Source of the DNA: Oscillibacter sp. 1-3
GTDB lineage: Bacteria; Bacillota; Clostridia; Oscillospirales; Oscillospiraceae
Direction of reading: 5' to 3'
DNA: 64,000 nt
Assembly: GCF_000403435.2 (NCBI RefSeq)
Contig: NZ_KE159707.1
Location: 359,607 to 423,606, forward strand
A program made the translations under genes and the position numbers. Position 1 is the first letter of the stretch. Every line of letters begins with the position of its first letter. Below the pieces are notes generated by a model. It was not told where the DNA came from, ran no database searches, and worked only from the letters and a program-made list of their open reading frames with translations. This document shows positions 46,239-61,820 of the stretch, one piece after another.

Positions 46239-48409
46239 GCAAGATCAAGACCCGTGAAAAGGGTAAGGACATTAAGGTGTTGGATAAATCCGCTGTCGTG
46301 GGCCAGCGCATGAAAAACGCCTTTATCCGCTCCAAGCGGAACGCGGCGGCGCTGATGGATGACCGGCAGGCTACTCCCAGCGAATACGCCGAGGATAAGG
46401 TGGAGTTTGCTGCCGATGATCTGGCCCATGATACGGCGAATGTGGCGGTGTCTGGCACGAAAACGGCAGCACGCCAGGGGCGAAAGCTGTTCCAGCGCCA
46501 GCGGGAGAAACGGGCGGCGGAGAAGCGCCGGGAAAACACCGCCCCCACGGAACAGGCTCCCGCCCCCGAACCGTCCCAGGGTACGGCCCCGGAGGGCCAG
46601 CCCCCGCAGCGGCACAGCGGGACAGCCCCGGAGGGACGGCTCCCGCGTCAGCGCACCGACCCGCCCAGGGATGGGCAGCGCCCCCGGCAGGGCACCGGCT
46701 CCGCCCAGGACAGACGGCTCCCACGCCAGCGAACCGGGACAGCCCCGGAGCGTCAGCACCTCCCACGGTATGAGCGCACAGCGGAGCGGCCCCCGGCCCG
46801 CGCTGACATTGAGCGCCCTGTTGATACCGCAAACTCCATTGTGGAGCGTGGGCGGGCCTTTGCCAAGAAGCAGGCCGCAAAGTGGGCCGAGCGGAAACGG
46901 CAGGTGAAAAACCGGCCTGTCCAGCCTGACCGGCCACCGCAGGTAAAGCCCCAGGACGCCGCCAAAGCGCCCCATCAGGTGGAAACAGCGGTCAATAACC
47001 TGGAAACGCCCATAAAAACGGCGAAACGGCCCGCCCAGGCTATGGGGCAGACCGCAAAGGCCACCGGCAGGGGCGCAAAGGGCACTGTTAAGAGCGCCCA
47101 GCGGACGGTAAAGACGGCACAGCGTACCGCAAAGGGCACCGTGAAAACCGCCCAGCATACGTCTAAAACCGCCATCAAGACCGCAGACCATACGGCAAAG
47201 GCGGCACAGAAAACGGCCCAGGCCACCGCAAAGGCGGCGAAAATGACCGCCCACGCCGCCCGTGCCACGGCCAAGACCGCCGCCGCCACCGCGAAAGCCG
47301 CCGCAAAGGGCGTTTCCGCTACGGTAAAAGCCATGATCGCATCCGTCAAGGCACTTGTGGCCGCTATTGCCGCTGGGGGCTGGGTTGCCATCCTTGCTAT
47401 CGTGATTATCTGCTTGATTGGCCTGATCGTCGGCTCCTGCTTCGGTATCTTCTTTTCGGGAGAGGACAGCGGCACGGGACAGACCATGCCCGCCGTTGTC
47501 CGGGAGATCAATCAAGAGTATGAGGGCAAGCTGGACGAGATCAAGAACAGCACCGCCCATGACACGCTTGAAATGTCCGGCTCCCGCGCCGTCTGGCCGG
47601 AGGTGCTGGCAATATACGCCGTTAAGACCACCACCGACCCGAACAACCCCCAGGAAGTCGCCACGATGGACGACAGCAAAAAAGAGCTGTTGAAAGAGAT
47701 ATTTTGGGCTATGAACGAGATAAGTAGCCGCACCGAAACCGCCACCACCACCCAAACCGTGGAAACCGACGATGGGGCGGGCAACATCATTGAGGAAGAA
47801 GTTGAGGTAACGACAACGACCCTCTATATCACCGTGACCCACAAGACCGCCGATGAAATGGCGGACGCCTACAACTTCACTGCCGACCAGCGGGCGCAGC
47901 TTGCGGAATTACTGGCTGAAGAAAACCGCAGTATGTGGAGCAGCGCCCTATACGGTATCGGCGTAGGCGATGGAGAGATCGTGGTGGTGGCTCTCTCCCA
48001 ACTCGGCAACGTGGGGGGCCAGCCCTATTGGTCATGGTACGGCTTCAACTCCCGCGTGGAGTGGTGCGCCTGCTTTGTCAGTTGGTGCGCCAACGAGTGC
48101 GGGTATCTGGACGCTGGCGTGATCCCCAGGACAGCGGGCTGTATCTCCGGCTCTGATTGGTTCAAAGACCGGGGACTCTGGCAGGACAACAGCTATGAAC
48201 CCCGTCCCGGTGACATCATCTACTTTGATTGGGACAACAAGGGCAACTCTGGCCCCCAGGACGGCCTTGCCGACCATGTGGGCATTGTGGAGAAGGTGGA
48301 GAACGGTCTTGTCTACACCGTGGAGGGCAACTCCGGCGATAGCTGCCGGGAGAACCGCTACGCCATAGGCCATTATGAAATTTATGGATACGGCACACCT
48401 GCCTACTGA
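46235..48409 (+). CDS. Conjugation cell-wall hydrolase with CHAP domain
   Basis: 724 residues. About 1-270 is basic and Pro-rich. About 275-370 is an extreme Ala/Lys/Thr repeat (units like KTAQRTAKGT and KAAKMTAHAA). One membrane helix (about 375-405) precedes an extracellular part ending in a CHAP amidase/peptidase domain (EWCACFVSWCANECGY, with catalytic Cys; DHVGIVEKVENG, His). Such proteins open peptidoglycan for the channel. Start overlaps the previous stop. Confidence 0.85.
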   Translation: MSKIKTREKGKDIKVLDKSAVVGQRMKNAFIRSKRNAAALMDDRQATPSEYAEDKVEFAADDLAHDTANVAVSGTKTAARQGRKLFQRQREKRAAEKRRENTAPTEQAPAPEPSQGTAPEGQPPQRHSGTAPEGRLPRQRTDPPRDGQRPRQGTGSAQDRRLPRQRTGTAPERQHLPRYERTAERPPARADIERPVDTANSIVERGRAFAKKQAAKWAERKRQVKNRPVQPDRPPQVKPQDAAKAPHQVETAVNNLETPIKTAKRPAQAMGQTAKATGRGAKGTVKSAQRTVKTAQRTAKGTVKTAQHTSKTAIKTADHTAKAAQKTAQATAKAAKMTAHAARATAKTAAATAKAAAKGVSATVKAMIASVKALVAAIAAGGWVAILAIVIICLIGLIVGSCFGIFFSGEDSGTGQTMPAVVREINQEYEGKLDEIKNSTAHDTLEMSGSRAVWPEVLAIYAVKTTTDPNNPQEVATMDDSKKELLKEIFWAMNEISSRTETATTTQTVETDDGAGNIIEEEVEVTTTTLYITVTHKTADEMADAYNFTADQRAQLAELLAEENRSMWSSALYGIGVGDGEIVVVALSQLGNVGGQPYWSWYGFNSRVEWCACFVSWCANECGYLDAGVIPRTAGCISGSDWFKDRGLWQDNSYEPRPGDIIYFDWDNKGNSGPQDGLADHVGIVEKVENGLVYTVEGNSGDSCRENRYAIGHYEIYGYGTPAY

Positions 48410-48430
48410 CCCCGCAGACGTATAATTTTC

Positions 48431-48473
48431 GCCCTGGACTGACTGGAAACAGTTCGTCCAGGGCGGCTTTTTT
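48431..48473 (+). terminator. Terminator at end of transfer operon
   Basis: GCCCTGGAC pairs with GTCCAGGGC followed by a T7 run. Confidence 0.85.
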
Positions 48474-48700
48474 CATTCCTCAAACAGCTTTGAAACGGGA
48501 ACTTCCAGTACATCCGCGATCTTAAACAGCGTTTCCAACGACACGCCAAAGACCCGCGTGGGGCTTTCAATTTTAGAGACATACGACCATGACCGCCCGA
48601 TCTTATCCGCAAACGCCTCCTGCGTCAGCCCCTGCAATTTTCGGTAGTATTGCACCTTCAATCCGAAGCGGATGTACTGTTCCCGATATTCCGTTTCCAT
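48473..48700 (-). CDS. XRE-family regulator (75 aa)
   Basis: ATG 48700 (METEYREQYIRFG) follows AGAGGGG. A single-domain HTH: LQGLTQEAFADKIGRSWSYV, SKIE, and DVLEVPVSKLFEE. The intergenic dyad at 48762 is a likely operator for it and for the divergent SLOG gene. Confidence 0.85.
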   Translation of the reverse strand: METEYREQYIRFGLKVQYYRKLQGLTQEAFADKIGRSWSYVSKIESPTRVFGVSLETLFKIADVLEVPVSKLFEE

Positions 48701-48761
48701 AGCGCACCCCTCTTTCCGATAAAAGGGTAACACGAAAACGGGGATTTATTTAGAGAATGTA

Positions 48762-48792
48762 ATTGCTATTTATAGCAATACAATGATATAAT
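48762..48792 (+). promoter_or_regulatory. Operator dyad and promoter
   Basis: ATTGCTA-TTTA-TAGCAAT (48762-48779) is a perfect 7-bp dyad, followed by -10 TATAAT at 48787. It lies between the XRE gene and the SLOG gene. Confidence 0.65.
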
Positions 48793-48856
48793 AGGGCAAT
48801 CACAGGTCAAGTATTCCCGCCGTCCGGCGAACGGGCGGGCACAAGGAGGTCATGCG

Positions 48857-49309
48857 ATGGAGAAAACCTGCTTTTTTATCGGCCACCGGGACGCGCCGGA
48901 CAGTCTGGCCCCGGTACTGGACGCCCTGGTGGAGCGGCATATCACGGAGTATGGTGTGGGGGAGTTTGTGGTAGGGCGCTACGGCGGGTTTGACGCGCTG
49001 GCGGCAAGCGCGGTGAAGCGGGCCAAGGTGCGCCACCCGGACGTGCGGCTGATCTGCCTGCGGCCCTACCACCCGGCTGAACGGACTGAAAAGACACCCA
49101 GCGGCTTTGACGGCTCCTTTTACCCTCCGGGGATAGAGCAAGTGCCAAGGAAGCTGGCTATCGTCCGGGCCAACCGCTACATGGTGGACAACAGCGACTT
49201 TCTGATTGCCTACGCATGGCACCCCGGCAACGCCCGTGAGTTGGTAGAGTACGCCCAGCGGCGAGAGCGGCGGGGATTATTGCGTGTGAATGTGCTGGGC
49301 CAAGCGTAG
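48857..49309 (+). CDS. SLOG-family (YpsA/DUF1273-like) protein
   Basis: 150 residues; ATG 48857 with AAGGAGG. It begins MEKTCFFIGHRDAPDSL (GHR motif) and has FVVGRYGGFDALAASAV and ADNSDFLIAYAWHPGNARE-like segments of Rossmann-type SLOG domains. SLOG proteins sense or process nucleotide signals and occur with defence or stress modules. Its XRE-controlled setting suggests inducible use. Confidence 0.75.
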   Translation: MEKTCFFIGHRDAPDSLAPVLDALVERHITEYGVGEFVVGRYGGFDALAASAVKRAKVRHPDVRLICLRPYHPAERTEKTPSGFDGSFYPPGIEQVPRKLAIVRANRYMVDNSDFLIAYAWHPGNARELVEYAQRRERRGLLRVNVLGQA

Positions 49310-49375
49310 GTCGTAACCTACCGCTGAAGATAAGGGCATACGAATAAGAGCCATTGACCTCGCAATCAACGGCTC

Positions 49376-49720
49376 TTACTCTTTCATTCTGATTGCCCCA
49401 TCCAAAGTGGCTTCTACGATAGGAAGATATTTTTCCGGGCATAGTTGCATTTTGTGACGCACTCTCTGGCGTACTTCACTGTTTTCCTGCATTAGCGCAG
49501 GATTGAAGTAGCGTTCCATAGGTAAATGACAAATTTGTATCAGTCGCAACATGACCGGGACGCTGGGAATTATTAGACCTAATTCAATGTTGGCGAGATA
49601 GCGAGTTGATACGCTTACTTCCTCTGCCAACGCTCTGCGTGTCATTCCTTGCGCTTCACGCCCTGCTCGTACATCCTCTCCAAAAGTTTCAAAACCGGGA
49701 CAATCCTTGACCTCTGCCAT
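49376..49720 (-). CDS. XRE-family regulator (114 aa)
   Basis: HTH in GREAQGMTRRALAEEVSVST with RYLANIELGLIIPS, then a helical C-terminus. Similar in design to the regulator at 34475 (shared RYLANIE). Divergent from the FAD oxidoreductase and probably its regulator. The hairpin AAGAGCC.TTGA/TCAACGGCTCTT at 49347-49378 ends it. Confidence 0.82.
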   Translation of the reverse strand: MAEVKDCPGFETFGEDVRAGREAQGMTRRALAEEVSVSTRYLANIELGLIIPSVPVMLRLIQICHLPMERYFNPALMQENSEVRQRVRHKMQLCPEKYLPIVEATLDGAIRMKE

Positions 49721-49833
49721 ATTACATCACCCAAGCACATTGTATAGTTCATACTCATTCTTTTGAATGATGTAATTTTCTCTTTACTTCCCTTTATAAT
49801 TCATCTTTGTTGAATCGAAAGCCCTGTCTTACG

Positions 49834-49862
49834 TTGTATCAGCCATGAAATTGTGCTATAAT
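49834..49862 (+). promoter_or_regulatory. Promoter of oxidoreductase gene
   Basis: TTGTAT, 17-bp spacer, TATAAT, 32 bp upstream of ATG. Confidence 0.65.
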
Positions 49863-49894
49863 CGAAGCGAAACTTTAGAAAAACGGGGTGCCCC

Positions 49895-50923
49895 ATGTAC
49901 GATGTAATTGTTGTCGGTGCTGGCCCTGCCGGAAGTACCGCCGCAAAGGTACTGGCTGAAAGAGGTCTTCACGTCCTGCTGGTAGAACGGCACAAACTCC
50001 CCCGCTATAAATCATGCTCCGGCATCCTGATCCAGAAGTCAATGGATTTGGTGCGGCGTTACTATGGACAGGATGTACCGCTGTCCGCAACGTGTACCCC
50101 GGCAGAAAATCGGGGCATGATCTTCACAGATGATAAAGGCCGGGAGTTCCGCTTTGAACAAGGCGGCTTGAACGTGTGGCGCAGTTCCTTTGATAACTGG
50201 CTGACGGAACAGGCGGCAGCGTCCGGCGCGGAAGTCCGGGACAACACCAGCGCCGTTTCCTGTGAGGAACAGCCCGATTTGATTTCTGTCACGCTGCGGG
50301 GGGAATCCTCTTGCACAGAACAGGCCAGATACATCATTGATTGTGAGGGTGTCACCGGCGTATTAAAGCGGCAGTTACTTGGAAACAACCGGGATTTTAT
50401 CACGACTTTCCAGACGTTCAACCGGGGAACAATCCAGTTAGACCCGCACTACTTCTATGCCTACTTACAGCCGGAGCTGTCCGAGTATGACGCATGGTTC
50501 AATGTGAAAGATGAAATGCTGGTGCTGGGCGTTTCAGTCAAGGACACCAGCAGGATCGAGCAGTTCTATCAGCGGTTCATCTCCTACATGGAAACCCACC
50601 ACGGCTTGCAGATCGGGCAGCAGGTCAAGGCGGAAAAGTGGCTGATGCCCCATATCCGGCCCGGTTGCTCCGTCACCTATGGACAGGGCCGGGTACTGTT
50701 CGCCGGTGAGATCGCTGGGTTCCTCAATCCGATGGGCGAGGGGATTTCGGCGGGGATGGAGAGCGGCTACTGCGTGGCCCAGGCCATAGCGAATCACTTT
50801 GACGCTTTGGATATGATTTATACAGACTACCAGCGAGACACCCAGCAGCTAAAGTCCTACATGAAACGTCAGTGGAATTTTGTCGGGCGGATGGCCGTTA
50901 CATTTTCGGACATGACTATCTAA
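49895..50923 (+). CDS. FAD-dependent oxidoreductase (geranylgeranyl-reductase-like)
   Basis: 342 residues with N-terminal dinucleotide motif VVGAGPAGSTAA, then ERHKLPRYKSCSG (conserved RxKxC in the GGR family) and a second FAD motif VLFAGEIAGFLNPMGEGISA. The substrate is probably a lipid or aromatic compound but cannot be read from sequence. It stands alone between its promoter and a strong terminator. Confidence 0.85.
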   Translation: MYDVIVVGAGPAGSTAAKVLAERGLHVLLVERHKLPRYKSCSGILIQKSMDLVRRYYGQDVPLSATCTPAENRGMIFTDDKGREFRFEQGGLNVWRSSFDNWLTEQAAASGAEVRDNTSAVSCEEQPDLISVTLRGESSCTEQARYIIDCEGVTGVLKRQLLGNNRDFITTFQTFNRGTIQLDPHYFYAYLQPELSEYDAWFNVKDEMLVLGVSVKDTSRIEQFYQRFISYMETHHGLQIGQQVKAEKWLMPHIRPGCSVTYGQGRVLFAGEIAGFLNPMGEGISAGMESGYCVAQAIANHFDALDMIYTDYQRDTQQLKSYMKRQWNFVGRMAVTFSDMTI

Positions 50924-50926
50924 ACG

Positions 50927-50980
50927 AAAGGTGCGGGGACAAAACACAAATGAGTTTTGTCCCCTGCACTTTATTTTTTG
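50927..50980 (+). terminator. Terminator after oxidoreductase
   Basis: AAAGGTGCGGGGACAAAAC pairs with GTTTTGTCCCCTGCACTTT, ending ATTTTTTG. Confidence 0.85.
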
Positions 50981-51055
50981 AAAAAATGTGACCTGCCATA
51001 GAGGTTTCCTGTCTATATGGGTGAAGAGCCTTATCGCAAGGGGAAGGAGGTTCGT

Positions 51056-51616
51056 GTGGAGGATAAGCAAATTATAGATTTGTATTGGAGGCGCGCCGAA
51101 ACTGCTATATCTGAAACTGCGAAGAAGTACGGGAGGTACTGTCATTCTATCGCATTTAATATCCTGCACAGCCATGAGGATAGCGAGGAATGTGTGAACG
51201 ATACGTTCTTCAACGCTTGGAGGACGATGCCGCCCCAGCGTCCGAGTAAATTTGCGGCTTTTCTTGGAACGATCACCCGGCATCTATCGCTTAACAGGTG
51301 GGAGCAATACAGCGCAGAAAAACGTGGCTGCGGACAAGTGCCGCTTGTGCTGGAGGAATTGAATGATTGTATCCCAGCTTCAGAAAATGTGGAACAGGTT
51401 GTCGATGATCTTGCTTTGACAGAACTGCTCAATCGGTTCCTGGGTACTCTTTCAACGGACAGTCGCAAAATATTCATGCGTAGATATTGGTATATGAACA
51501 CAATTAAAGAAATTGCGAAAGGCTATTCAATGAGTGAGAGCAAAGTGAAAATGTCTTTGTTCCGCTCCCGAAACGAACTGAAACAATTATTGGAGAAAGA
51601 AGGTTTTGATCTATGA
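51056..51616 (+). CDS. ECF-type sigma factor
   Basis: GTG 51056 follows AAGGAGG. 186 residues: region 2 (ILHSHEDSEECVNDTFFNAW) and region 4 (YWYMNTIKEIAKGYSMSESK). Overlaps the following membrane protein gene by four bases, so the two form a sigma/anti-sigma-like pair. Confidence 0.88.
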   Translation: MEDKQIIDLYWRRAETAISETAKKYGRYCHSIAFNILHSHEDSEECVNDTFFNAWRTMPPQRPSKFAAFLGTITRHLSLNRWEQYSAEKRGCGQVPLVLEELNDCIPASENVEQVVDDLALTELLNRFLGTLSTDSRKIFMRRYWYMNTIKEIAKGYSMSESKVKMSLFRSRNELKQLLEKEGFDL

Positions 51617-52350
51617 AAGAAAAGCGTTTGTTGAAGGCTATGGGCAAAGTGGACGAAAAGTACATCGAAGAAGCGTCCCCTGCCCAGCACGCCAAAAGAC
51701 CCGGCTGGTTGAAACGGGGGGCCATCGCAGCTTGTTTATGCGTAGCTTTGTTAGCCGGAGTGCTTTTCAAAATTCCTGGTCCAGACGTTACCATTGCACC
51801 GGGCTTTTTGGTAGTCACAGCGTATGCCGCTTCATCAGATGAAGAAATAACCATGCAGGAAGGTATAGAGTTGCCAACAGATTATAAGTGGAGCCTTGCT
51901 ATGAGCAGCCGACCGGGACTTCCATTGAAACTATCCACTACGGAATACGACGATTTAAGTTTTGAGGTATCAGTTGATGGCGGGACATTGCTTTTTTGGG
52001 AGGGTAACAAAATAACATATTTAGACTCGTCGTTCAACACTGGAAATGATACTACTGTATATTGGACTAACCTATCGCGAACAGGCGAGAGCGATTTTGA
52101 ACGGTATATGGGAACTACGGCATATATCAACATCGTAATTTACGAGGGAGATAACATTGTTGGATATGCTGTTGTTGAAATATACACAAATGACCTTGAA
52201 AATGAACCTGCACAGACTTACTCTGCCAAGTTGCTCAAGTCAGTATCTTTCCCAAAAGCTAATAGGGAATATCAAAAGATAACCGCTGAATATGTAGCGA
52301 CGGAAATGGAACAAATCAAAAACGAAACACAAGCCGGACAGAGGTGGTAG
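51613..52350 (+). CDS. Single-pass membrane protein, probable anti-sigma or sigma-controlled sensor
   Basis: 245 residues: short cytosolic basic N-terminus (MKEKRLLKAMGKVDEKY), one membrane helix (about 36-53), then an extracellular domain of about 190 residues with beta-rich sequence. The N-terminal cytosolic part is of the size used by anti-sigma proteins in clostridial ECF pairs. Translational coupling to the sigma gene supports this. Signal unknown. Confidence 0.72.
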   Translation: MKEKRLLKAMGKVDEKYIEEASPAQHAKRPGWLKRGAIAACLCVALLAGVLFKIPGPDVTIAPGFLVVTAYAASSDEEITMQEGIELPTDYKWSLAMSSRPGLPLKLSTTEYDDLSFEVSVDGGTLLFWEGNKITYLDSSFNTGNDTTVYWTNLSRTGESDFERYMGTTAYINIVIYEGDNIVGYAVVEIYTNDLENEPAQTYSAKLLKSVSFPKANREYQKITAEYVATEMEQIKNETQAGQRW

Positions 52351-52501
52351 GGGCCGATATTACCGACCAGAGCGGCAACGAGCATCTTGGCGTCATCGAA
52401 TTTCCTGTGCCGATCCTGTGGGGTTCGCCGGAGATTATCAAGCAGATTAGGATGGTATTACTAAGAGAGACTACCGCAGAATGGTCTATAAATAGAGTGA
52501 A

Positions 52502-52540
52502 CGGACAAGGCCCAACCGAGCCTTGTCCGCTTACTTTTTT
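52502..52540. terminator. Terminator between convergent operons
   Basis: CGGACAAGGC pairs with GCCTTGTCCG, followed by TTACTTTTTT. Serves the sigma operon and possibly the leftward DUF6033-like operon. Confidence 0.85.
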
Positions 52541-52551
52541 GAGAGGGATAA

Positions 52552-53568
52552 TTACAACATCGCTCCGCCGCCCCAAACTTGGGACTGCGTGATCGCCAGA
52601 ACGGTTTCAGTAGGAATACCGGCAATCTCGCTGCCAAAAATCTCCCGCAGGTTCCCGCCCGTCAGCATGGCGGCAAGCTGGGATTTCGCCGCAGCGGACG
52701 CGGCCAGCTCGGAAGCCTGGATGTGCCGCTGAATTTGCTTTTCCACCGCCAGTTTCATAAACTCGGCGTGGCGGGCCATACGCAAATCCCACCAGCTTTC
52801 TTCATCGTCAGAACCGCTCTTGGAGTAGGTGATCTCCCCGCCTGCGCTGGAGGAACAGGCATTACAGATGTTCCCGTCCTCCCCGATGGCAACGGCCTGG
52901 GACATATCCCAGGTACTACCGGGCATAATGGCCTCGTTTCGCGCTACGTCAAATGCAAACCATGTGTCGATCTTCGCAAAAATCTCCTGGGCATAGGCCG
53001 GGTCTTGCTCCATGCGCTCCTGCACCTTGGGATGAATGACCACGGCTTTGCTCCCAGGCGGGACGTTGCCCAGGGCGTGAATCTCTTTCGGAGCGGTGAA
53101 CCTGCCTTCTATGGAGCCGTAGAAGGGATTGGCCCCGGTGGGCTGCCAATTCTCCAGCGTTTCCTTTGCCTTGTCCCCGTCCTGGTACAACAGGTAATGA
53201 GGGTAGTCGTTCCGTGTTCTCCAATAGCCGCTGCTGGCGTCAAAGACGTGATAATGGATGTTGGGATATTTGGCCTTCAGCATGGTTTCCAGAGAAGGAG
53301 CCTCCGTTGCTTCTGTTGCCTCCACATCCCCCGTCTGAACCTGCCCGGCAGCCCGCACCGACAAATCCATCATAAGGCTGGTAGGCAGACCCGCCATACC
53401 CATAAGGCCGCTCATGCCGGTTGTCAGCGTGTCCGTTCTGCCCCGGCTGGCCTGCGCCGCCATATCAAGAAAACGGTTGGCCTGTGTCCCGGTCTGCTTG
53501 GCTTCACGGGCCTTTGTGGGGGCGCTATATGTCTGTGTCCCATAACCCGGCTGAATCGTATTGCTCAC
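52552..53568 (-). CDS. DUF6033-like protein 1 (338 aa)
   Basis: GTG start at 53568 with GGGAGG. The N-terminus (NTIQPGYGTQTYSAPTKARE, then RFLDMAAQAS) is shared with the two genes upstream. The mid region has VVIHPKVQERMEQDPAYAQE and IFAKIDTWF, also shared. The C-terminal part is an Ala-rich amphipathic helix (QASELAASAAAKSQLAAML), ending GGGAML. No signal peptide or catalytic motif. Last gene of the LytTR-GHKL operon. It resembles DUF6033 proteins of unknown function. Confidence 0.75.
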   Translation of the reverse strand: MSNTIQPGYGTQTYSAPTKAREAKQTGTQANRFLDMAAQASRGRTDTLTTGMSGLMGMAGLPTSLMMDLSVRAAGQVQTGDVEATEATEAPSLETMLKAKYPNIHYHVFDASSGYWRTRNDYPHYLLYQDGDKAKETLENWQPTGANPFYGSIEGRFTAPKEIHALGNVPPGSKAVVIHPKVQERMEQDPAYAQEIFAKIDTWFAFDVARNEAIMPGSTWDMSQAVAIGEDGNICNACSSSAGGEITYSKSGSDDEESWWDLRMARHAEFMKLAVEKQIQRHIQASELAASAAAKSQLAAMLTGGNLREIFGSEIAGIPTETVLAITQSQVWGGGAML

Positions 53569-53581
53569 ACTATTTCCTCCC

Positions 53582-54211
53582 TTAAAGCAACCCCATCAAA
53601 AGTTCTGCGGCGCTGACGGAACCGCCGTTCATACGGAGTTTCATCATCAACCGCCGTTTCGCTGCGGCTTCCTCGGCAAGTTCCATATATTTTTTATGGC
53701 GTTCCATGCGTTGCTCCCAAAAACTGCCCTCTGATCGCGTATGAAATTCCGAATCGTTTCCAACGGGCCAGGAATCAGCCCTGTATTGGTCAAGCGAAGT
53801 TCCAACTGTAATTAAGACAGAACAATTCCGCGGAGCATAGGAGGCCCCCAAATCCCTTTGAAGCAAGGCGAGAACCTGTGCCCTATATTCTGGATCATCT
53901 TTCATCGCTTGAAATGCTGCGTCCGATATATTGACAGCCGCATTACTTACTGTTGGATTGCAGATTATTTTCGACAAGTCCTCATAAAACTCTTTCTTAA
54001 AGAGCTGCATTTCCTCTGCTTTCGATAGCTCCGCTTTCTGCTGGGTGGCCTCTGTTCCGTTGACCTCAAATACATCATTTTTCTTTTCACCGGCCCGTGC
54101 CGCCATATCCATGAAGCTGCTACCCTGCGTCCCGGTCTGCCTTGCTTTACGGGCCTTTGTAGGGGAGCTGTATGTTCGCATTCCGTAACCCGGTTGAATC
54201 ATATTGCTCAT
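53582..54211 (-). CDS. DUF6033-like protein 2 (209 aa)
   Basis: The N-terminal 35 residues are nearly identical to protein 1 (IQPGYG..TYS.PTKAR, then FMDMAARA). The middle section is shorter and keeps the ISDAAFQAMKDDPEYRAQV motif. Basic-helical C-terminus ending ELLMGLL. It starts 21 bases after gene 3 and ends 13 bases before gene 1. Likely a shortened paralogue. Confidence 0.72.
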   Translation of the reverse strand: MSNMIQPGYGMRTYSSPTKARKARQTGTQGSSFMDMAARAGEKKNDVFEVNGTEATQQKAELSKAEEMQLFKKEFYEDLSKIICNPTVSNAAVNISDAAFQAMKDDPEYRAQVLALLQRDLGASYAPRNCSVLITVGTSLDQYRADSWPVGNDSEFHTRSEGSFWEQRMERHKKYMELAEEAAAKRRLMMKLRMNGGSVSAAELLMGLL

Positions 54212-54232
54212 TGTATCACCCTTCCTGTTTCA

Positions 54233-55006
54233 TTACATATTGAGGAAAAACATATTTGCTCCTGCTGGTAAAGAAATCTCCGGCGTGATAGCGGGGGCAG
54301 ATACCATCCGCGTTTTCAGCAGATCACCGATATTGGAAAAGGATTTTTCCAATACCTCCGCCCCTGCGGTACGCTCCCACATGGCCCTGCGCTGTGCCGC
54401 CGCTGCTGCGGCCTGCTCCTGATACTGCCGCTGCTGTTCCGCTTTTTTCTTTGCCTTTTCCGCATTGATCCTGTTTACCTCGGCCACACGCTCCGGGGAA
54501 TCGCCACAGCCGCCGATATAGGTCACACTTCCATCCTCATGGATTACCACGCCACAAGGCTCATAGTTAAGACCCCGGGCGGCGAACTGTGCTTTCAATC
54601 TTGGAGTAGCATTGAAAAAATCATCAATCTTCTGCTCATAATACGCGGCCTTTTCCGGGTCATTCGCCATATCCTCTAAAATGTTGGGCGCAATCACAAC
54701 GCTGTTGCCGTTCATGCGACCGCCCGCTTTTTGAAGGCTGGCTTGGTCTTTTCCGACGCTCTGAATCGTAACCTGTCCGTATTTGTTTTCCAGGTGTTTC
54801 TTGTAAGCATCAACATTTGATGTTTCGCCCTCGTTGGTGACTTCCGGCCTGCTGCTGATCTCCAGCACGTCAGCCGTGCCTCTGCTGGCCTTTGCAGCCA
54901 TATCCAGAAAACTGGAAGTCCGTGCCGCCGTACTCCGAACGGTGCGGTTTTCGGGTAGGGGGCTATACATCCTGTTCAAATATCTGCAATCGATCATGCC
55001 GCTCAT
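54233..55006 (-). CDS. DUF6033-like protein 3 (257 aa)
   Basis: Same plan: N-terminal YSPLPENRTV and SSFLDMAAKASRGTADVLEI, then NSVVIAPNILEDMANDPEKA and YEQKIDDFF, CGVVIHEDGSVTYIGGC, an Ala/Gln helix, and hydrophobic end GANMFFLNM. ATG 55006 overlaps the kinase stop by four bases, placing all three proteins in the signalling operon. Confidence 0.75.
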   Translation of the reverse strand: MSGMIDCRYLNRMYSPLPENRTVRSTAARTSSFLDMAAKASRGTADVLEISSRPEVTNEGETSNVDAYKKHLENKYGQVTIQSVGKDQASLQKAGGRMNGNSVVIAPNILEDMANDPEKAAYYEQKIDDFFNATPRLKAQFAARGLNYEPCGVVIHEDGSVTYIGGCGDSPERVAEVNRINAEKAKKKAEQQRQYQEQAAAAAAQRRAMWERTAGAEVLEKSFSNIGDLLKTRMVSAPAITPEISLPAGANMFFLNM

Positions 55007-56382
55007 AAACTGCTCCTTTCCTGCAATAGAACTGTTGCGGAAAATTCCTGCTGAACTGCTTTCAGCTCCAATTCTCCCATGTACTTCTCCGCCTCCCGGC
55101 GCACGTTGGCAAGGCCGATGCCGTGCATGGGAACATCCTCCTGTTTCGTTGTGACAGGCAAGCCGTCCTGCCCGAATACCACCTCACCCGTGAAAGAGTT
55201 TTTGACCTCTATCAGAAAGAAACGTCCTTTTCTCTTTCCAGTCAGTACAATAAACCGTTCACCCTCGCCCACCTTCTCGCAAGCCTCCACCGCGTTTTGC
55301 AGAAGATTTTGAAGGATGATACCCACATCAAAGGCATCATAGGCCCCCGGATCGGGGTAATGGAACTCCACCTGGAAACAGATGCCCAGGTCAAGGCTCC
55401 GCCGCCGTGTCTCGTTGACAATCACATCCGTGACCGGGTTGCCCGTCTGAAGCGTCAGCTCAAAGCCGCTCATACTCTCGTCCATTTTGGCGATATAGTC
55501 CTCCAGGCTGGCATATTCGCCGCTCTGCGCCAGACCCTTGATGTTGGTCAGATGGCCCCGCATCTCGTGTTTCAGCCCACGGATGCGGGCGTAGAACTGT
55601 TCCGCCTCATGGATACGCGCCCGGATCGCCTGTGTCTGCTGGTACTCCATGTAGTGCGTGGCCTGTTCAGCCCGGAGCGCCGCCATACCTTGCTGAAAAG
55701 TGATGGTCAGATAGGCCCCGGCGTAGAACAGCAGGGCCAGCACCGGGATTACCGCCAAAAACGCCGGGTGGCGCTCATAGAGCTGGAGCAGAACGCCGTC
55801 CTTGAACTCCACCAGCAGCCGGGAGATCACCTGTCCGAACAGAATCCCCGCTGTTGGCACCAGGGCGAGATAGCACAGCTCCCGCCGGTGGAGCGTCATA
55901 CGCTGTTTCCGCATTTGATGCTGGAGGGCATAGAGCATGACGGCCAGCATAGAGGCGTGGGACAGCAGGAACAGCATGACCAGCAGGGCGGCGCGGAGAA
56001 AGACCGCCTCCGGCGGTTCCAGGCGGTAGGGGACTGACCGCTCCACAATAAAATACAGACTTTGCACCATCAGGCCGCTGGAAATCCTGGCGTTGAAGTA
56101 GAGCAGCGTCAGGAGGAACACAGACGGCTTTTCCAGTCCGATCCACCTGGATACCACCAGCAGCATCGCCATCAGGATCAGCCCAAAGGAGCCTTGGGGC
56201 AGCGCCGCCCGGTTGCAGACGATCTCAAACAGAATGTAGACGAAAAAAACAAGGAGCAGCCCGCACCGCCGTTTGTCCTGCGGAACGAAAGGCCGGAAAA
56301 AGGCGGTGAGCAGGGCGGCGTATGTCAATTCTGCCCCGGCGGAAAATGCCTGATTGAATATCCGAAACCCTGTCTCGCTCAT
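55003..56382 (-). CDS. GHKL-type sensor kinase (AgrC-like)
   Basis: ATG 56382 (MSETGFRIFNQAFSAG) overlaps the regulator stop. 459 residues: about six membrane helices to residue 225, coiled-coil, H-box RGLKHEMRGHLTNIKGLAQ, N-box IILQNLLQNAVEAC and ATP site GIGLANVRREAEK. AgrC-type kinases usually sense peptides, yet no agrB/agrD is visible here. Confidence 0.88.
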   Translation of the reverse strand: MSETGFRIFNQAFSAGAELTYAALLTAFFRPFVPQDKRRCGLLLVFFVYILFEIVCNRAALPQGSFGLILMAMLLVVSRWIGLEKPSVFLLTLLYFNARISSGLMVQSLYFIVERSVPYRLEPPEAVFLRAALLVMLFLLSHASMLAVMLYALQHQMRKQRMTLHRRELCYLALVPTAGILFGQVISRLLVEFKDGVLLQLYERHPAFLAVIPVLALLFYAGAYLTITFQQGMAALRAEQATHYMEYQQTQAIRARIHEAEQFYARIRGLKHEMRGHLTNIKGLAQSGEYASLEDYIAKMDESMSGFELTLQTGNPVTDVIVNETRRRSLDLGICFQVEFHYPDPGAYDAFDVGIILQNLLQNAVEACEKVGEGERFIVLTGKRKGRFFLIEVKNSFTGEVVFGQDGLPVTTKQEDVPMHGIGLANVRREAEKYMGELELKAVQQEFSATVLLQERSSL

Positions 56383-57104
56383 AGGCCAGCCCCCCTTTTC
56401 ACAAAGCGGAGGTAGGCTTTCACGAAGTCCTGGTACTTGTATTTGGAGATCAGCAGCTTTTCCCCATTGGTCAGCGTCAGCTCCGTCTTGCTGTACCCCT
56501 CCACATAGGCGAGATTGACCAGATAGCCCTTGTGGACACGGAAGAACTGATCGCCCAGCTCCGCCTCTAAATCCCGAATTTTCGCGTAGCAGGAAAATGC
56601 CCCGTCTTTCAGACACAGCACAACCTTGTGATTGCTGCTTTCGATGTAATAAATGTTGTCCAGCGGTACGGTTCGGCTGGTGCCAGCAGATTGAAGCGTG
56701 AGCGCATGGGAAAGCTGCGGCCGAACACGGCCCACCTCGATCTGTTCCACGGCGCGGGCAAAGACCTGGGCAAGCTTTTCCTCGTCCACCGGCTTCAGCA
56801 GATATTGGAACGCGCCCACGTCAAAGGCATCGAACACATACCGCTCATAGCCGGTCACAAAGATAATGACCGGCTGGGTCACGGCTGACTGTTCCCTGAT
56901 CTGGCGGGCCAGCGCCATACCATCCGGGCCGGTGGCGTTCAGCTCAATGTCCAGAAAGAGCAGGTCAATTCCCCGGTGGTCTGCGAGGCAGTCACTGGCG
57001 GAGGCGTACTCCACGACCTCACAGGGGCAGTCCTGCGCCCGGATCAGGGACGTAAGATAGGCGCGGGTGGGGGCTTCATCATCACAAATTGATATTCTCA
57101 TCAT
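56379..57104 (-). CDS. LytTR response regulator (AgrA-like)
   Basis: 241 residues: receiver with DDE near 9-11 and phospho-Asp in LLFLDIELNATG, and Lys in YLLKPVD; LytTR DNA-binding domain (VPLDNIYYIESSNHKVVL, then FFRVHKGYLVNLAYVEGY). First gene of the operon with the kinase and three DUF6033-like genes. Paired boxes 60-90 bp upstream fit its site. Confidence 0.92.
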   Translation of the reverse strand: MMRISICDDEAPTRAYLTSLIRAQDCPCEVVEYASASDCLADHRGIDLLFLDIELNATGPDGMALARQIREQSAVTQPVIIFVTGYERYVFDAFDVGAFQYLLKPVDEEKLAQVFARAVEQIEVGRVRPQLSHALTLQSAGTSRTVPLDNIYYIESSNHKVVLCLKDGAFSCYAKIRDLEAELGDQFFRVHKGYLVNLAYVEGYSKTELTLTNGEKLLISKYKYQDFVKAYLRFVKRGAGL

Positions 57105-57162
57105 GGCGATATTCCTCTACCTGTTTATTCGTTCAAATGGCTATCAGGGTAAGCCCGGTTGA

Positions 57163-57192
57163 CGTGACTGGACAGTTTGATAGCGTAACTGG
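57163..57192 (-). promoter_or_regulatory. LytTR-type direct repeats
   Basis: On the minus strand CCAGTTACG and CCAGTCACG occur at 57184-57192 and 57163-57171, exactly 21 bp apart, the spacing typical of LytTR/AgrA half-sites. A TATAAT on the minus strand (57214-57219) lies upstream. The boxes would be between that -10 and the gene. Confidence 0.65.
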
Positions 57193-57236
57193 ACGGCACA
57201 ACCTGTCCCTGGCATTATATCATAAGAGGAAAAGAC

Positions 57237-57264
57237 GGGGAGCCGCCTTTTCAAGCAGCTCCCC
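57237..57264 (-). terminator. Hairpin after 57285 gene
   Basis: GGGGAGC pairs with GCTCCCC; T-rich loop. Confidence 0.5.
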
Positions 57265-57284
57265 AATAAACATATAAGTTCCAT

Positions 57285-57704
57285 TTACTGTTTCGTAATC
57301 CCTAAAATATACTGATAAGCAAACTCAATTCCATTACAAGTCAGGTTTTCACATAGATGTGGCGGATCGCTTTCTGAAAAACCCGAAGGACGCAGTTCAA
57401 GGCATCTTAATGACCCAAATGTTTTCTCAAAGGCAGACGCAAAATTATAACAGGCAGATACGATTTCATCTTCTGATTTTCCCAGCCCATGAAGATAAAT
57501 CCCTATGAACATAAGCGAACCTTCCACCAAACCACATTGCGCTCTATATCCGCCTGCGCCATGCAGTCCAACCGCAGACCAAATTGTTTGCGGCTCAATG
57601 GTAATTTCAAATAATTCGCTCAAACAGACGAGTGCTGTCCTTGCACAATTTATATCTTCCTTCCAGTACAAATCATGTACCCGATTTGTTATGTATTCGT
57701 TCAT
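57285..57704 (-). CDS. C_GCAxxG_C_C-type redox protein
   Basis: ATG 57704 (MNEYITNRVHDLYWKED) with AAAAGGTG. 139 residues; helical start with INCARTALVCLSELF, then HGAGGYRAQCGLVEGSLMFI, resembling the C_GCAxxG_C_C family. Not all family Cys are present: the usual GCG core reads GAGGYRAQCG. Probably iron-sulfur or thiol redox, low certainty. Confidence 0.65.
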   Translation of the reverse strand: MNEYITNRVHDLYWKEDINCARTALVCLSELFEITIEPQTIWSAVGLHGAGGYRAQCGLVEGSLMFIGIYLHGLGKSEDEIVSACYNFASAFEKTFGSLRCLELRPSGFSESDPPHLCENLTCNGIEFAYQYILGITKQ

Positions 57705-57864
57705 CAAAACACCTTTTCTCAAAAAAATTTACCGTTTGAATTATAGCATAGGCCCAGCCGCAATTCAATTCCTGGAGAGAAACTTTTCGTTCAGACTTCC
57801 ATTTATCCGCTCGATATGTTATAATGGATTTCTGAGTTGTTAAAACATACGGGACGGATATAAA

Positions 57865-58422
57865 ATGGAACCTATGAATTTGAGAATTGGCGAGAAATTG
57901 AAAAGCATCCGCATGGCCCGCACTCTTTCCCTGGACGATACTGCGGCGCTGACGGGCGTGAGCAAGCCCATGTTAGGCCAGATCGAACGCGGACAGTCCG
58001 TCCCAACGGTGACAACCCTCTGGAAGATTGCCACAGGGCTGAAAACACCGCTGTCCGCGTTCCTGGAAGAACCGCAGACGGAATACACCGTCACCGGCCC
58101 GGACGAGGCAAACGTGGTCTTGGGGGACGGCGGCAAAATGAGGGCCTATCCGCTGTTCACCTATGACCCGGTGCGGAGCGTGGAGACATTCTACATTGAG
58201 TTTGACCCGGAGTGCCGCCATTCTTCTGACAAGCACGATGAGGGTGTGGAGGAACACATCTTTGTCCTGCGGGGGACGCTGCGGCTCGTCCTGGGGGACA
58301 GGCCGGTGGAGGTCAGCGAGAGACAGGCTATCCGTTTCCGAGCCGACGTTCCCCACGCCTATCAGAACGTGACCGGGGACAGGTGTGAGGTCTACAACAC
58401 CATATTCTATCCAAGCCATTAA
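57865..58422 (+). CDS. XRE-cupin regulator
   Basis: 185 residues: N-terminal HTH (LKSIRMARTLSLDDTAALTG, SKPMLGQIERGQSVPTV), C-terminal cupin (DEGVEEHIFVLRGTLRLVLG, PHAYQNV). It probably regulates the MBL hydrolase gene 14 bp downstream in response to a small ligand. Confidence 0.9.
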   Translation: MEPMNLRIGEKLKSIRMARTLSLDDTAALTGVSKPMLGQIERGQSVPTVTTLWKIATGLKTPLSAFLEEPQTEYTVTGPDEANVVLGDGGKMRAYPLFTYDPVRSVETFYIEFDPECRHSSDKHDEGVEEHIFVLRGTLRLVLGDRPVEVSERQAIRFRADVPHAYQNVTGDRCEVYNTIFYPSH

Positions 58423-58436
58423 GGAGGACGCTGATT

Positions 58437-59315
58437 ATGTACGAACTGATTCAGGTTTCGGAGCAAAGCTATTACATCCAAAGTCCGGCGAAGATCGGGC
58501 TGGTGCGGTTGGACGGGCAGGAGGTCTGCCTGATCGACAGCGGCAATGATAAGGACGCGGGGCGTAAAGTCCGGCAGATTCTGGACGCCAACGGCTGGCA
58601 CCTCACCGCCATCTACAACACCCACTCCAACGCTGACCACATCGGCGGCAACAGGTATTTGCAAGGACAGACCGGGTGCAAAATCTACGTGCCGGGGATT
58701 GACTGTGCTCTTACCTGCCACCCCATTCTGGAGCCGTCCTTTTTGTACGGCGGCTATCCGTGTAAGGAGCTGCGGCATAAATTTCTCATGGCCCAGGAGA
58801 GTGATGCCCAGGAATTGATGAAGGAATGTCTGCCGGAGGGCTTTACAATCATCCCCCTGCCGGGACATTTCTTTGATATGGTGGGCTTTCGGACACCTGA
58901 TGATGTGGTCTATCTGGCGGATTGCCTGTCCAGCCGGGAAACATTGGACAAGTATCAGATTGGCTTTATCTACGATGTTGCCGCCTATCTGAACACGCTG
59001 GAAATGGTGAAGTCCTTGCAAGCGAAGGTATTTGTCCCGGCCCACGCCGCCGCCTCCGAGGACATAGCTGACCTCGCACAGTACAACATCGACAAGGTGC
59101 TGGAGATTGCGGATAAGATCATTGGTATCTGTAAGGAACCGCTCTGCTTTGAGGCCATTCTGCAACGGTTGTTTACGGACTACGGGCTGACCATGAACTT
59201 TGAGCAATACGTCCTGGTGGGCAGCACCGTCCGCTCCTATCTGGCGTGGCTGAAGGACACCGGCAGGCTGAACGGCCTGTTTGAAAACAATATGCTGCTC
59301 TGGCAGCGGGTATAG
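58437..59315 (+). CDS. MBL-fold metallohydrolase
   Basis: 292 residues. Metal motif appears as THSNADHIGGN (first His of HxHxDH read as H, then S-N-A-D-H), plus PLPGHFFDMVGF, LADCLSS and VFVPAHAA. C-terminal helical extension. Glyoxalase-II-like hydrolase of unknown substrate. Operon with the XRE-cupin and NTF2-like genes. Confidence 0.85.
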   Translation: MYELIQVSEQSYYIQSPAKIGLVRLDGQEVCLIDSGNDKDAGRKVRQILDANGWHLTAIYNTHSNADHIGGNRYLQGQTGCKIYVPGIDCALTCHPILEPSFLYGGYPCKELRHKFLMAQESDAQELMKECLPEGFTIIPLPGHFFDMVGFRTPDDVVYLADCLSSRETLDKYQIGFIYDVAAYLNTLEMVKSLQAKVFVPAHAAASEDIADLAQYNIDKVLEIADKIIGICKEPLCFEAILQRLFTDYGLTMNFEQYVLVGSTVRSYLAWLKDTGRLNGLFENNMLLWQRV

Positions 59316-59324
59316 GAGGACACT

Positions 59325-59738
59325 ATGGATCAGCGAGAGAAAATCATCAGGCTATGGTTTGATATGTGGCTACAAAAGAAAGACCTGGGCATAGAGGACA
59401 TATTTTCTGCTGATGCCCTTTACATCGAAAGCTGGGGGCCGCAGTATCAGGGTGTTGCCAAAGTGAAGCATTGGTTTGAGGAATGGAATACACGCGGAAA
59501 TGTCCTCCAGTGGGACATCAAACAGTATTTCCACAAAGGGTATCAGACTATCGTTGAATGGTATTTCAAGAATAAAATGGACGACGGCAGGGTGGAATCC
59601 TTTGACGGCATGACCCTTGTAAAATGGACGGCGGACAATACGATCTGCTTTTTGCAGGAGTTTGGTTGTAATGAGCATCGCTATGACCCATATCAGGACG
59701 GGCCGGTTCCGAAATTTAGAGATGAACAAGCTATGTAG
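59325..59738 (+). CDS. NTF2-like/SnoaL protein
   Basis: 137 residues with a SnoaL-type pattern (YIESWGPQYQGVAKVKHWFE, VEWYFKNKMDDGRVESFDGM). Ten bases after the MBL gene. Small-molecule-binding fold; function unknown. Confidence 0.8.
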   Translation: MDQREKIIRLWFDMWLQKKDLGIEDIFSADALYIESWGPQYQGVAKVKHWFEEWNTRGNVLQWDIKQYFHKGYQTIVEWYFKNKMDDGRVESFDGMTLVKWTADNTICFLQEFGCNEHRYDPYQDGPVPKFRDEQAM

Positions 59739-59811
59739 TTCTGAATTATGCAAAAGGATTTAGTTTGTCTGTCAAAAAAGTAAGAGCGTTACTTATCAAC
59801 CGAATCAAAAT

Positions 59812-59887
59812 TTAAGACCACAGTAGTATTGACATTCTTTTAAGACTGTGGTAGTATAACGGTGTGGCCACTACTACGGTCTTAAAA
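59812..59887 (+). promoter_or_regulatory. blaI promoter with three operator boxes
   Basis: Three related boxes TTAAGAC(C/T)..(A/G)GTAGTA lie at 59812-59828 and 59839-59856 (direct) and 59870-59887 (inverted). They surround -35 TTGACA (59829) and -10 TAGTAT (59852), 17-bp spacer. A classic repressor-occluded promoter. Confidence 0.8.
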
Positions 59888-59902
59888 AGGAGGTGCTACC
59901 GA

Positions 59903-60262
59903 ATGGAAACTAAACTGTTTGCTTCTGAACTGAAAGTAATGTCTGTCCTTTGGCGCGATGGCGATGTTCCTGCGAAGCATATCGCTAAACTGCTGACCGA
60001 GGAATTGGGTTGGAATGTGAATACGACCTATACCTTGATTAAGCGGTGCATCAAAAAAGGCGCGATTGAACGCTCCGACCCCGGTTTCATGTGTCACGCG
60101 CTTGTGCCGCAGGCAGAAATACAGGAGGCAGAAACAAACGAACTGATCGACAGGGTGTATGACGGATGTGCGGACAAACTGTTTGCGGCTTTGCTGGGGC
60201 GAAAAAAGTTGAGCGCCGAGCAAATCGAAAAGCTGAAGCAGATTGTTGGCGACTTGGAATGA
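59903..60262 (+). CDS. BlaI/MecI-family repressor
   Basis: ATG 59903 with AAAAAGGAGG. 119 residues with winged helix (SELKVMSVLWRDGDVPAKHI, NTTYTLIKRCIKKGAIERSD) and a C-terminal dimerisation helix. Overlaps nothing but runs to 10 bp before the M56 gene. Controls its own promoter through the boxes upstream. Confidence 0.93.
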   Translation: METKLFASELKVMSVLWRDGDVPAKHIAKLLTEELGWNVNTTYTLIKRCIKKGAIERSDPGFMCHALVPQAEIQEAETNELIDRVYDGCADKLFAALLGRKKLSAEQIEKLKQIVGDLE

Positions 60263-60272
60263 GGTGATGCAA

Positions 60273-61589
60273 ATGAGCCTGTTGCAAATGAGTTTTGCGG
60301 GAGGCGTGATGATCTTGGCAATCACCGTCATTCGTACCTTGGCAATCAACCGTCTCCCGAAAAAGACCTTTTTGGCGCTTTGGGGAATAGCCGTTGTGCG
60401 CCTGCTGCTCCCGTTCTCTTTCCCCTCTGTATTTAGTGTCTATTCATTATTAGGCAGTCATGTATCAGGAACAGACGTTGCAGAAAGCCCCCTTGCAGTT
60501 GCGTTGATGCCGGTCGAAGTAGCTGGGCAAAAGGCTACAATGTCCACAAATATAATTTCTGTTTGGGTGGTTGTTTGGGCTGCTGGTGCATTGATTTGTG
60601 CCTTGGCTTTTGGCGTAGCATATTGGAAGTGCCGACAAGAATTTCAAACTTCATTTCCAGTAGAAAATGCCTTCATTAGAAGCTGGCTGAACAAGCATCA
60701 ACAGAAGCGTCCTATTTCCGTTCGGCAATCCAGTAGATTTTCTGCCCCGCTTACCTATGGTGTATTTCACCCCGTAATTCTGATGCCAATATCTACTGAA
60801 TGGGCTAATACAAAGTCACTTCGATATGTTTTGGAGCATGAATATGTGCATATCCGGCGGTTTGACAGCATTACAAAATTAGTGTTGATTACGACGCTGT
60901 GTGTGCATTGGTTTAATCCCTTGGTTTGGGTTATGTATATCCTTGTGAACCGGGATATTGAACTATCGTGCGACGAGGCAGTAGTGCATCTTTTTGGGGA
61001 GAACACAAAAGCGGCTTATGCGCGGACACTCATCAGCATGGAAGAAACTCGAAGCGGCTTTGCTCCCTTGTGCAGCAATTTTAGTAAAAACGCGATTGAA
61101 GAAAGGATAACTGCAATTATGAAAATCAAAAAAGCATCTATTTTCTCTCTTGTTCTGGCCCTGGCCTTGGTTTGTGGAGTAACCACGGCATTTGCGACCT
61201 CCGCAAATGCACAGCAGGCCGATCCCGTGGAGCAGAACGACAATATCAACATTGTGGGTAAACCGGCCTCCACTCCGCAGATTGCGGACACCTTTGGGAC
61301 TTTTTTCAAAGATGATGGCAAGTCTGCTGAATTTGATACAAGTGAGGCTCAAATGGCAACCCCGGTGCAGTCTGGCGATATTTATGGTACGCCCGTGGAC
61401 AAAACCGGCGTAGCAGCAAATGGCCTGCCCGAAAGCAATGTAATCTATTTCGACACCGAAGCCCAGCGCGACGAACATTTTCGCGCTCTGGATGCAAACA
61501 TTAAAAAAGGGCTGGATCGCTATGCGGGCTTTGAAACCATGTATGCTGGCATAGATACCTCCGCACCTATCACCTATATCGTGAAGTAA
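60273..61589 (+). CDS. BlaR1-like M56 metalloprotease without penicillin sensor
   Basis: ATG 60273 with GAGGTG. 438 residues: four or so membrane helices, zinc-protease motif HEYVHIRRFD (HExxH) near residue 191 and NRDIELSCDEAVV. After about 300 comes a membrane helix and a signal-like segment, then a short Ser/Asp-rich extracellular domain, not the BlaR1 beta-lactam-binding domain. So the inducer is probably not a beta-lactam. Confidence 0.88.
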   Translation: MSLLQMSFAGGVMILAITVIRTLAINRLPKKTFLALWGIAVVRLLLPFSFPSVFSVYSLLGSHVSGTDVAESPLAVALMPVEVAGQKATMSTNIISVWVVVWAAGALICALAFGVAYWKCRQEFQTSFPVENAFIRSWLNKHQQKRPISVRQSSRFSAPLTYGVFHPVILMPISTEWANTKSLRYVLEHEYVHIRRFDSITKLVLITTLCVHWFNPLVWVMYILVNRDIELSCDEAVVHLFGENTKAAYARTLISMEETRSGFAPLCSNFSKNAIEERITAIMKIKKASIFSLVLALALVCGVTTAFATSANAQQADPVEQNDNINIVGKPASTPQIADTFGTFFKDDGKSAEFDTSEAQMATPVQSGDIYGTPVDKTGVAANGLPESNVIYFDTEAQRDEHFRALDANIKKGLDRYAGFETMYAGIDTSAPITYIVK

Positions 61590-61610
61590 GTACCTGCGAT
61601 CTGATAAACA

Positions 61611-61647
61611 ACGGGCATAGCCACCTAATGGCGGCTATGCCCGTTTG
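61611..61647 (+). terminator. Terminator of blaI-M56 operon
   Basis: ACGGGCATAGCC pairs with GGCTATGCCCGT followed by TTTG. A related hairpin occurs at 62860. Confidence 0.8.
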
Positions 61648-61820
61648 CCATCAAGGGGCACAGCCTATGTTCAACAATTTTCTAACGTGGTCTGAAACAG
61701 TTATTAACTATGTCAAATAGGTGCTATTGTTTTGGAAAGTACCTTCCCTAAAAGTACGTTCTTGCTCTCCTTTTTATAAGATGGTATGTTTATTGCAATT
61801 ACAATGAAAGGAAACCTCTT

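Follow-up and report, generated by a model that had tools for sequence, protein, structure and literature searches.

A LytTR/GHKL two-component operon of Oscillibacter sp. 1-3 encoding DUF6033-superfamily proteins with a correlative link to flagella

The 64,000-nt stretch of Oscillibacter sp. 1-3 that we analysed (contig NZ_KE159707.1; hereafter the window, to whose positions all coordinates refer) carries on its minus strand, at 57104-52552, genes for a response regulator (RR), a histidine kinase (HK) and three further proteins, P3, P2 and P1, in that order. We read them as a self-regulated LytTR/GHKL operon whose output may be a set of DUF6033-superfamily proteins tied to flagella and exported, by means of their N-terminal heads, through the flagellar type III apparatus, and we consider this reading about equally likely to be right or wrong. 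Its parts differ in strength: the five genes appear to form one operon, which is strongly supported, and its regulation by the two-component system is predicted with good support. For the DUF6033 family the tie to flagella, though correlative, is a good one, and the most likely mechanism would be export by way of the flagellar apparatus, at roughly an even chance. What is new here is the association of this type of operon with flagella, itself a correlative one.

The regulator (56379-57104, 241 aa) combines REC and LytTR domains (Pfam LytTR, E 9e-21; Response_reg, E 2.8e-16; both above cut-off) and lies directly beside a GHKL kinase (55003-56382, 459 aa; HATPase_c_5, E 6.4e-20, above cut-off), the domain arrangement by which a LytTR/GHKL two-component system is recognized. 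We took the kinase to start at the ATG at 56382, which overlaps the RR stop codon; the longest mechanical open reading frame (ORF) has an earlier start and would give 537 aa. P3 (54233-55006, 257 aa), P2 (53582-54211, 209 aa) and P1 (52552-53568, 338 aa, GTG start) follow on the same strand. RR/HK and HK/P3 overlap by 4 bases, and gaps of 21 bp and 13 bp separate P3 from P2 and P2 from P1. An earlier, sequence-only reading of this DNA had given the same coordinates, lengths and tight spacing, all of which hold on re-reading, and had proposed a shared operon, a proposal that gains from the position of the kinase in related loci and from a LytTR-type box before the regulator, both described below.

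P3 is a true DUF6033 protein (PF19498, E 1.7e-29, 103.6 bits against a curated cut-off of 25). P1 and P2 fail that cut-off, P1 scoring 13.9 bits and P2 having no match to any Pfam family. Profile-profile comparison, using alignments built from related loci, unites all three (P3/P1, E 1.6e-16; P1/P2, 1.4e-14; P3/P2, 1.5e-9), and because it does so, the three DUF6033-like paralogues of the sequence-only reading appear to be just that, in the sense of a diverged superfamily. The V.I.P...E.M..DP motif ascribed to the three can be read clearly in P1 (VVIHPKVQERMEQDP) and in P3 (VVIAPNILEDMANDP), P2 has a degenerate form of it (VNISDAAFQAMKDDP), and the hydrophobic tails ascribed to them are weak (FFLNM, LLMGLL, GGAML). 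The AlphaFold2 model of P3 has an alpha/beta core followed by a C-terminal helix of ~65 residues (mean predicted local distance difference test score, pLDDT, 69.6); that of P1 is poorer (mean 56.2). The P3 model had no fold match in the PDB at E <= 0.001 and none at Z >= 8 in VIA-align, where the best score, 5.7, came through long helices, and a sequence search of solved structures gave nothing convincing (best E 0.043). This failed fold search reveals no function, and it does not prove a new fold. The literature search found no paper naming DUF6033 or DUF3879, and among the profile, structure and literature searches we met no homologue of known, unrelated function, the kind of match that would have spoken against the sequence-only reading. 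A tblastn search of plasmids and phages with P3 as the only query returned no match, and a scan of a defence library yielded only two weak ones (P2, E 0.0066; RR, E 0.00094). Rfam had no match in window positions 48000-62000; in three related loci it had one, to pemK, which is unrelated.

We found 44 related loci by scanning genome contigs. Judged by title, they come mostly from Oscillospiraceae, Lachnospiraceae and unnamed Clostridia, many of them presumably from mouse gut. A kinase gene lies upstream of the DUF6033 gene in 32 of the 35 loci with at least 2.5 kb of upstream sequence (the exceptions are L030, L051 and L052), and a regulator was recognized in 29 of these 35, a count to be read with the fact that our ORF picker drops some regulators to overlapping frames. 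Loci of the Oscillospiraceae type have the kinase and then one to three family genes; those of the Lachnospiraceae type have arrays of up to ~11 small genes (L042, L048), the raw script runs of 13 (L042) and 15 (L045) taking in other genes as well. The arrays comprise P1-, P2- and P3-like genes, DUF3879 genes (PF12995; L029) and several unnamed families. Mosaics occur: L010 has an identical P3 together with a P2 whose tail resembles P3 tails, and L022 has a P1-type head on a P3 body. The Oscillibacter genome itself holds a second copy of the system on contig C1 (identity 76% for the regulator, 79% for the kinase and 82% for P1), in which P3 is decayed, with head and tail retained, the middle lost and the frame changed. 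A 62-residue DUF6033 piece also stands at the end of a Helicobacter contig (L052:9297-9485), where contamination is likely.

The box before the regulator consists of the direct repeats GTCCAGTTACG and GTCCAGTCACG, 21 bp apart (57163-57194, minus strand), in the form GTCCAGTTACG-N10-GTCCAGTCACG, 58 bp before the gene, and is found with small changes in 10 related loci. At up to 3 mismatches the pattern occurs in the own genome only twice, here and before the second regulator, against one match for the reversed-pattern control. Downstream of the box, ACGAATAAA (57124-57132, minus strand) is a candidate -10 region that aligns among related loci and may be the positional equivalent of CGATATAA in Lachnospiraceae operons; upstream of it, a TATAAT (57214-57219, minus strand), with a similar element in several related loci, could be a basal housekeeping promoter. 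An automatic scan found the repeat with CGATA or CGAATA 27-35 nt downstream at 20 of 31 regulators. In eight genomes of the Lachnospiraceae type, TTTCGTTCC-N13-TTTCGTTCC is matched 30 times with no more than 2 mismatches, and its reversed control 8 times; all 14 of the pattern's matches with 0-1 mismatch precede a regulator (12) or an apparent regulator remnant (2; L129, L132). Among the weaker matches, those in L147 and L133 stand before solitary genes, DUF6033 and P1-like respectively, those in L136 and L127 before a metallo-beta-lactamase-fold gene, and several others appear unrelated. The pattern fits a LytTR regulator that would bind at, and control, its own operon and a few genes elsewhere. 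We rejected CGATATAA before the Lachnospiraceae regulators as proof of sigma-28 control: since the L133 and L136 boxes precede a plain TATAAT, a housekeeping promoter activated by LytTR is equally likely.

The tie to flagella comes mainly from co-occurrence. In the own genome FlhA is present along with six flagellin matches (one partial), the marks by which we recognized a flagellar export apparatus; the three genomes sampled from its genus lack FlhA. FlhA is above cut-off in 35 of 39 genomes scanned from among those of the related loci, compared with 53 of 250 in the own family; the 39 use 33 of the 44 loci, include three genomes with only sub-threshold DUF6033 (G044, G053, G143) and count the Helicobacter contig end trivially. 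In an even draw of 393 Clostridia (genomes at least 90% complete, DUF6033 counted above cut-off), FlhA occurs in 20 of the 21 genomes with DUF6033 and in 155 of the 393 overall (Fisher p 5e-8, a test that ignores ancestry). We regard it as strongly supported that the family is nearly restricted to genomes with a flagellar export apparatus, which makes that apparatus the likely candidate for the linked secretion system that the sequence-only reading had proposed to look for by a survey of genome context. The FlhA exceptions among the 39 are G271, with flagellin matched five times and FlhA present only as a broken piece, and G020, G259 and G143, which have neither FlhA nor flagellin. The array in G020 has a GC content of 0.39, against 0.52-0.65 in three other sampled contigs, so this array is likely, though not proven, to be foreign or misbinned.

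Gene order points the same way. L090 has a fla/che cluster with MotA, MotB, FliM, FliN-type, FliP, FliR-type and sigma-70-family genes by Pfam, plus FlhA, and this cluster ends with genes for a DUF6033 protein (E 1.6e-14) and a FlxA-like protein (E 2.5e-8); FlhB and CheC were assigned there by reading. The order RR-HK-DUF6033-FlxA-like (by Pfam) recurs in L038 and L113, and the counterpart gene in L094 is FlxA-like by phmmer alone, with no Pfam match. Exact sigma-28-type promoters precede 3 of 22 DUF6033 genes (two of them in one genome) and 1 of 287 other genes.

Another TAAAG...CCGATA sigma-28-type promoter is directed away from the regulator or its remnant in 14 Lachnospiraceae loci (L027, L029, L031-L037, L039, L042-L044, L051). 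By reading, a strong hairpin follows this divergent promoter in ~10 of 12 folded loci, and the product could be a short non-coding transcript. Pairing of such a putative small RNA with the translation starts of the arrays was no better than with other genes (12 loci, mixed signs), and we dropped it as a mechanism.

If the proteins are exported, the signal would probably lie in their heads, for which the candidates on the minus strand are 54851-55006 in P3 (residues 1-52), 54062-54211 in P2 (residues 1-50) and 53419-53568 in P1 (residues 1-50). The first ~50 residues are the most similar part of P1-P3, that of P3 being the most diverged. With P1 residues 1-49 as query, phmmer E-values are ~1e-20 for heads of the P2 type in related loci and 1e-5 to 1e-9 for most of the P3 type, a likeness beyond chance that bears out the common N-terminal signature of the sequence-only reading. 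AlphaFold2 predicts disorder (pLDDT < 50) over residues 1-61 of P3 and 1-88 of P1; the P2 head is a candidate through its resemblance to that of P1. The first 40 residues of 120 such proteins, compared with the heads of 356 other ORFs, are poor in E (3.9% vs 5.8%), D (3.2% vs 4.2%), L (4.8% vs 8.7%) and C (0.6% vs 2.1%), and G, N, S and T are raised. A head motif chosen after the arrays had been inspected, M and then [IV].G[IVL] with a small or polar residue, occurs in 29 of 53 P3-type proteins and recurs on unlike families (19 of 26 and 4 of 7 members of two unnamed families, 2 of 3 of one FlxA type). Only 10 of 1179 other genes have it, at least 7 of those 10 also in arrays, and it is found in 0 of 15 DUF3879 and 1 of 27 P1-type proteins. 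The window's own heads belong to another type (IQPGYG). Disorder and such a composition are expected of type III export signals. The head traits, which we assessed by composition and pLDDT, fit a signal of this kind and are not proof of export; together with the recurring motif, they favour the suggestion of the sequence-only reading that a conserved head on divergent bodies serves in targeting or export.

We propose that the kinase responds to a signal, which need not be a peptide, by phosphorylating the regulator, and that the regulator would then activate its own operon in flagellated cells. The disordered heads would mark the proteins for export by the flagellar type III apparatus, and the folded core with its long helix might act outside the cell or on the flagellum itself, for example as an accessory of filament or hook, an adhesin or a released factor. 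The external peptide that the kinase had been suggested to sense is unsupported, and no agrB-like gene was found among the neighbours scanned. The absence of agrB and agrD in the sequence-only reading stands as far as AgrB goes, with no such domain matched by the neighbouring proteins that we scanned; for agrD, no special search was made for so short a gene.

Several observations weigh against flagellar export. The proposal rests on sequence and structure models, with export, binding and expression all predicted. The FlhA test is uncorrected for ancestry, and G020, which carries its array with neither FlhA nor flagellin, is rated 100% complete; G259 lacks both too. The own genome has no FlxA match. 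The count of sigma-28-type promoters is small, with a single genome supplying most of it, and the window has no TAAAG-N12-17-CCGATA promoter in exact form, the consensus of this genome not being established (2 of 3 own flagellin upstreams scanned are without a clear sigma-28-type match). Box plus -10 was not picked up automatically for 11 of the 31 regulators (L013, L017, L019, L035, L038, L039, L042, one of two in L045, L047, L098 and L099), although repeats are visible by eye in L013, L017, L019 and L042. Cysteines are kept in the core of P3 relatives, and core cysteines are unusual among exported flagellar proteins. These cysteines, the long C-terminal helix of the P3 model and the same co-occurrence with flagella would also suit cytoplasmic partners of the flagellum (chaperones, anti-regulators or motor accessories) whose heads bind a common partner, with nothing exported. 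We think this unlikely: heads that are poor in acidic and hydrophobic residues, predicted to be disordered and alike on unlike bodies are better explained as export signals.

What speaks most strongly against a flagellar role throughout the family is its presence, in two Clostridiaceae genomes, beside radical-SAM peptide-maturation clusters with a subtilase and an ABC transporter (five DUF6033 copies in L092:5021-15380 and one in L097:9209-16557; the former cluster CcpM-type by NCBIfam, TIGR04068, the latter assigned by resemblance), which also counts against flagellar export. With the array of G020, the L092 cluster would agree with products related to toxins, effectors or peptides that are exported or act in a different way (through type VII secretion or an exporter of ribosomally synthesized and post-translationally modified peptides, RiPPs), the flagellar link being a by-product of large motile genomes. 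The genomes of L092 and L097, however, both carry FlhA, and the relative linked to fla/che genes comes with FlxA. Type VII export is less likely because EssC is above cut-off in just 3 of 13 such genomes, not including the own, and we hold the whole alternative to be quite improbable. A third alternative is a gene family that is selfish or spreads horizontally, brings its own regulator and persists through mobility with no set role in the cell. It could account for the GC content of the operon (0.553, compared with 0.59-0.63 for four other parts of this genome), the decayed second copy, the regulator remnants elsewhere and a nearby CHAP-domain gene (46235-48409), which we take to be of a kind carried by integrative elements. 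The conservation of the box before regulators of diverged lineages and the relatives linked to fla/che genes and FlxA point instead to a functional tie, and we consider such a family very unlikely.

If flagellar export does occur, commensal flagella would be a regulated export route, beyond their roles as motor and source of flagellin. The flagellar tie and the dedicated two-component switch together offer a testable function for DUF6033 and DUF3879; arrays of ~11 genes of these types span many kilobases in motile mouse-gut Lachnospiraceae. A further idea, which we put forward tentatively and with more doubt than belief, is that the operon and the Lachnospiraceae arrays form a switchable, recombining repertoire of flagellum-exported proteins, with variable bodies behind a few conserved export heads. 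The sensor kinase would then turn on the repertoire in flagellated cells, and the flagellum would let gut Clostridia secrete proteins that face the host or neighbouring cells.

Other genes surround the operon. Beside it, at 57865-59738, are genes for an HTH/cupin regulator, a hydrolase of the metallo-beta-lactamase fold (58437) and a SnoaL-like protein. Counterparts of the hydrolase, 90-100% identical, lie near the operon in L010, L016, L019 and L021, and a relative of it stands directly behind a LytTR-type box in L136 and L127. Convergent with the operon, at 51017-52350, a sigma-70-family (ECF-like) gene overlaps a second gene without a family, perhaps as a sigma/anti-sigma pair. At 59864-61589, a BlaI-type repressor gene (Penicillinase_R) adjoins one for a BlaR1-type M56 protease.

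Three families and one class of regulatory system invite comparison. Literature searches on LytTR with Clostridia flagella, E. rectale with sigma28, E. plexicaudatum, Roseburia flagella and flxA gave nothing on these genes among the matches listed, and one on FlxA with Lachnospiraceae found no paper. FlxA-like proteins (PF14282) are a different family from those of the window, and their genes follow DUF6033 genes in L038, L090 and L113. The E. coli gene flxA, of the flagellar regulon, is reported to have a FliA promoter and no evident function in flagella (PMC4183435). DUF3879 likewise is a separate family, with members in the Lachnospiraceae arrays and no match among the window proteins, and to DUF6033 itself P3 belongs by the curated cut-off, P1 and P2 by profile comparison only. 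LytTR/GHKL systems of the AgrA/AgrC type have the same domain make-up in both proteins and a direct-repeat box before the regulator. They differ from the operon here in that no AgrB domain turned up among the neighbours scanned and in that its output genes are relatives of DUF6033.

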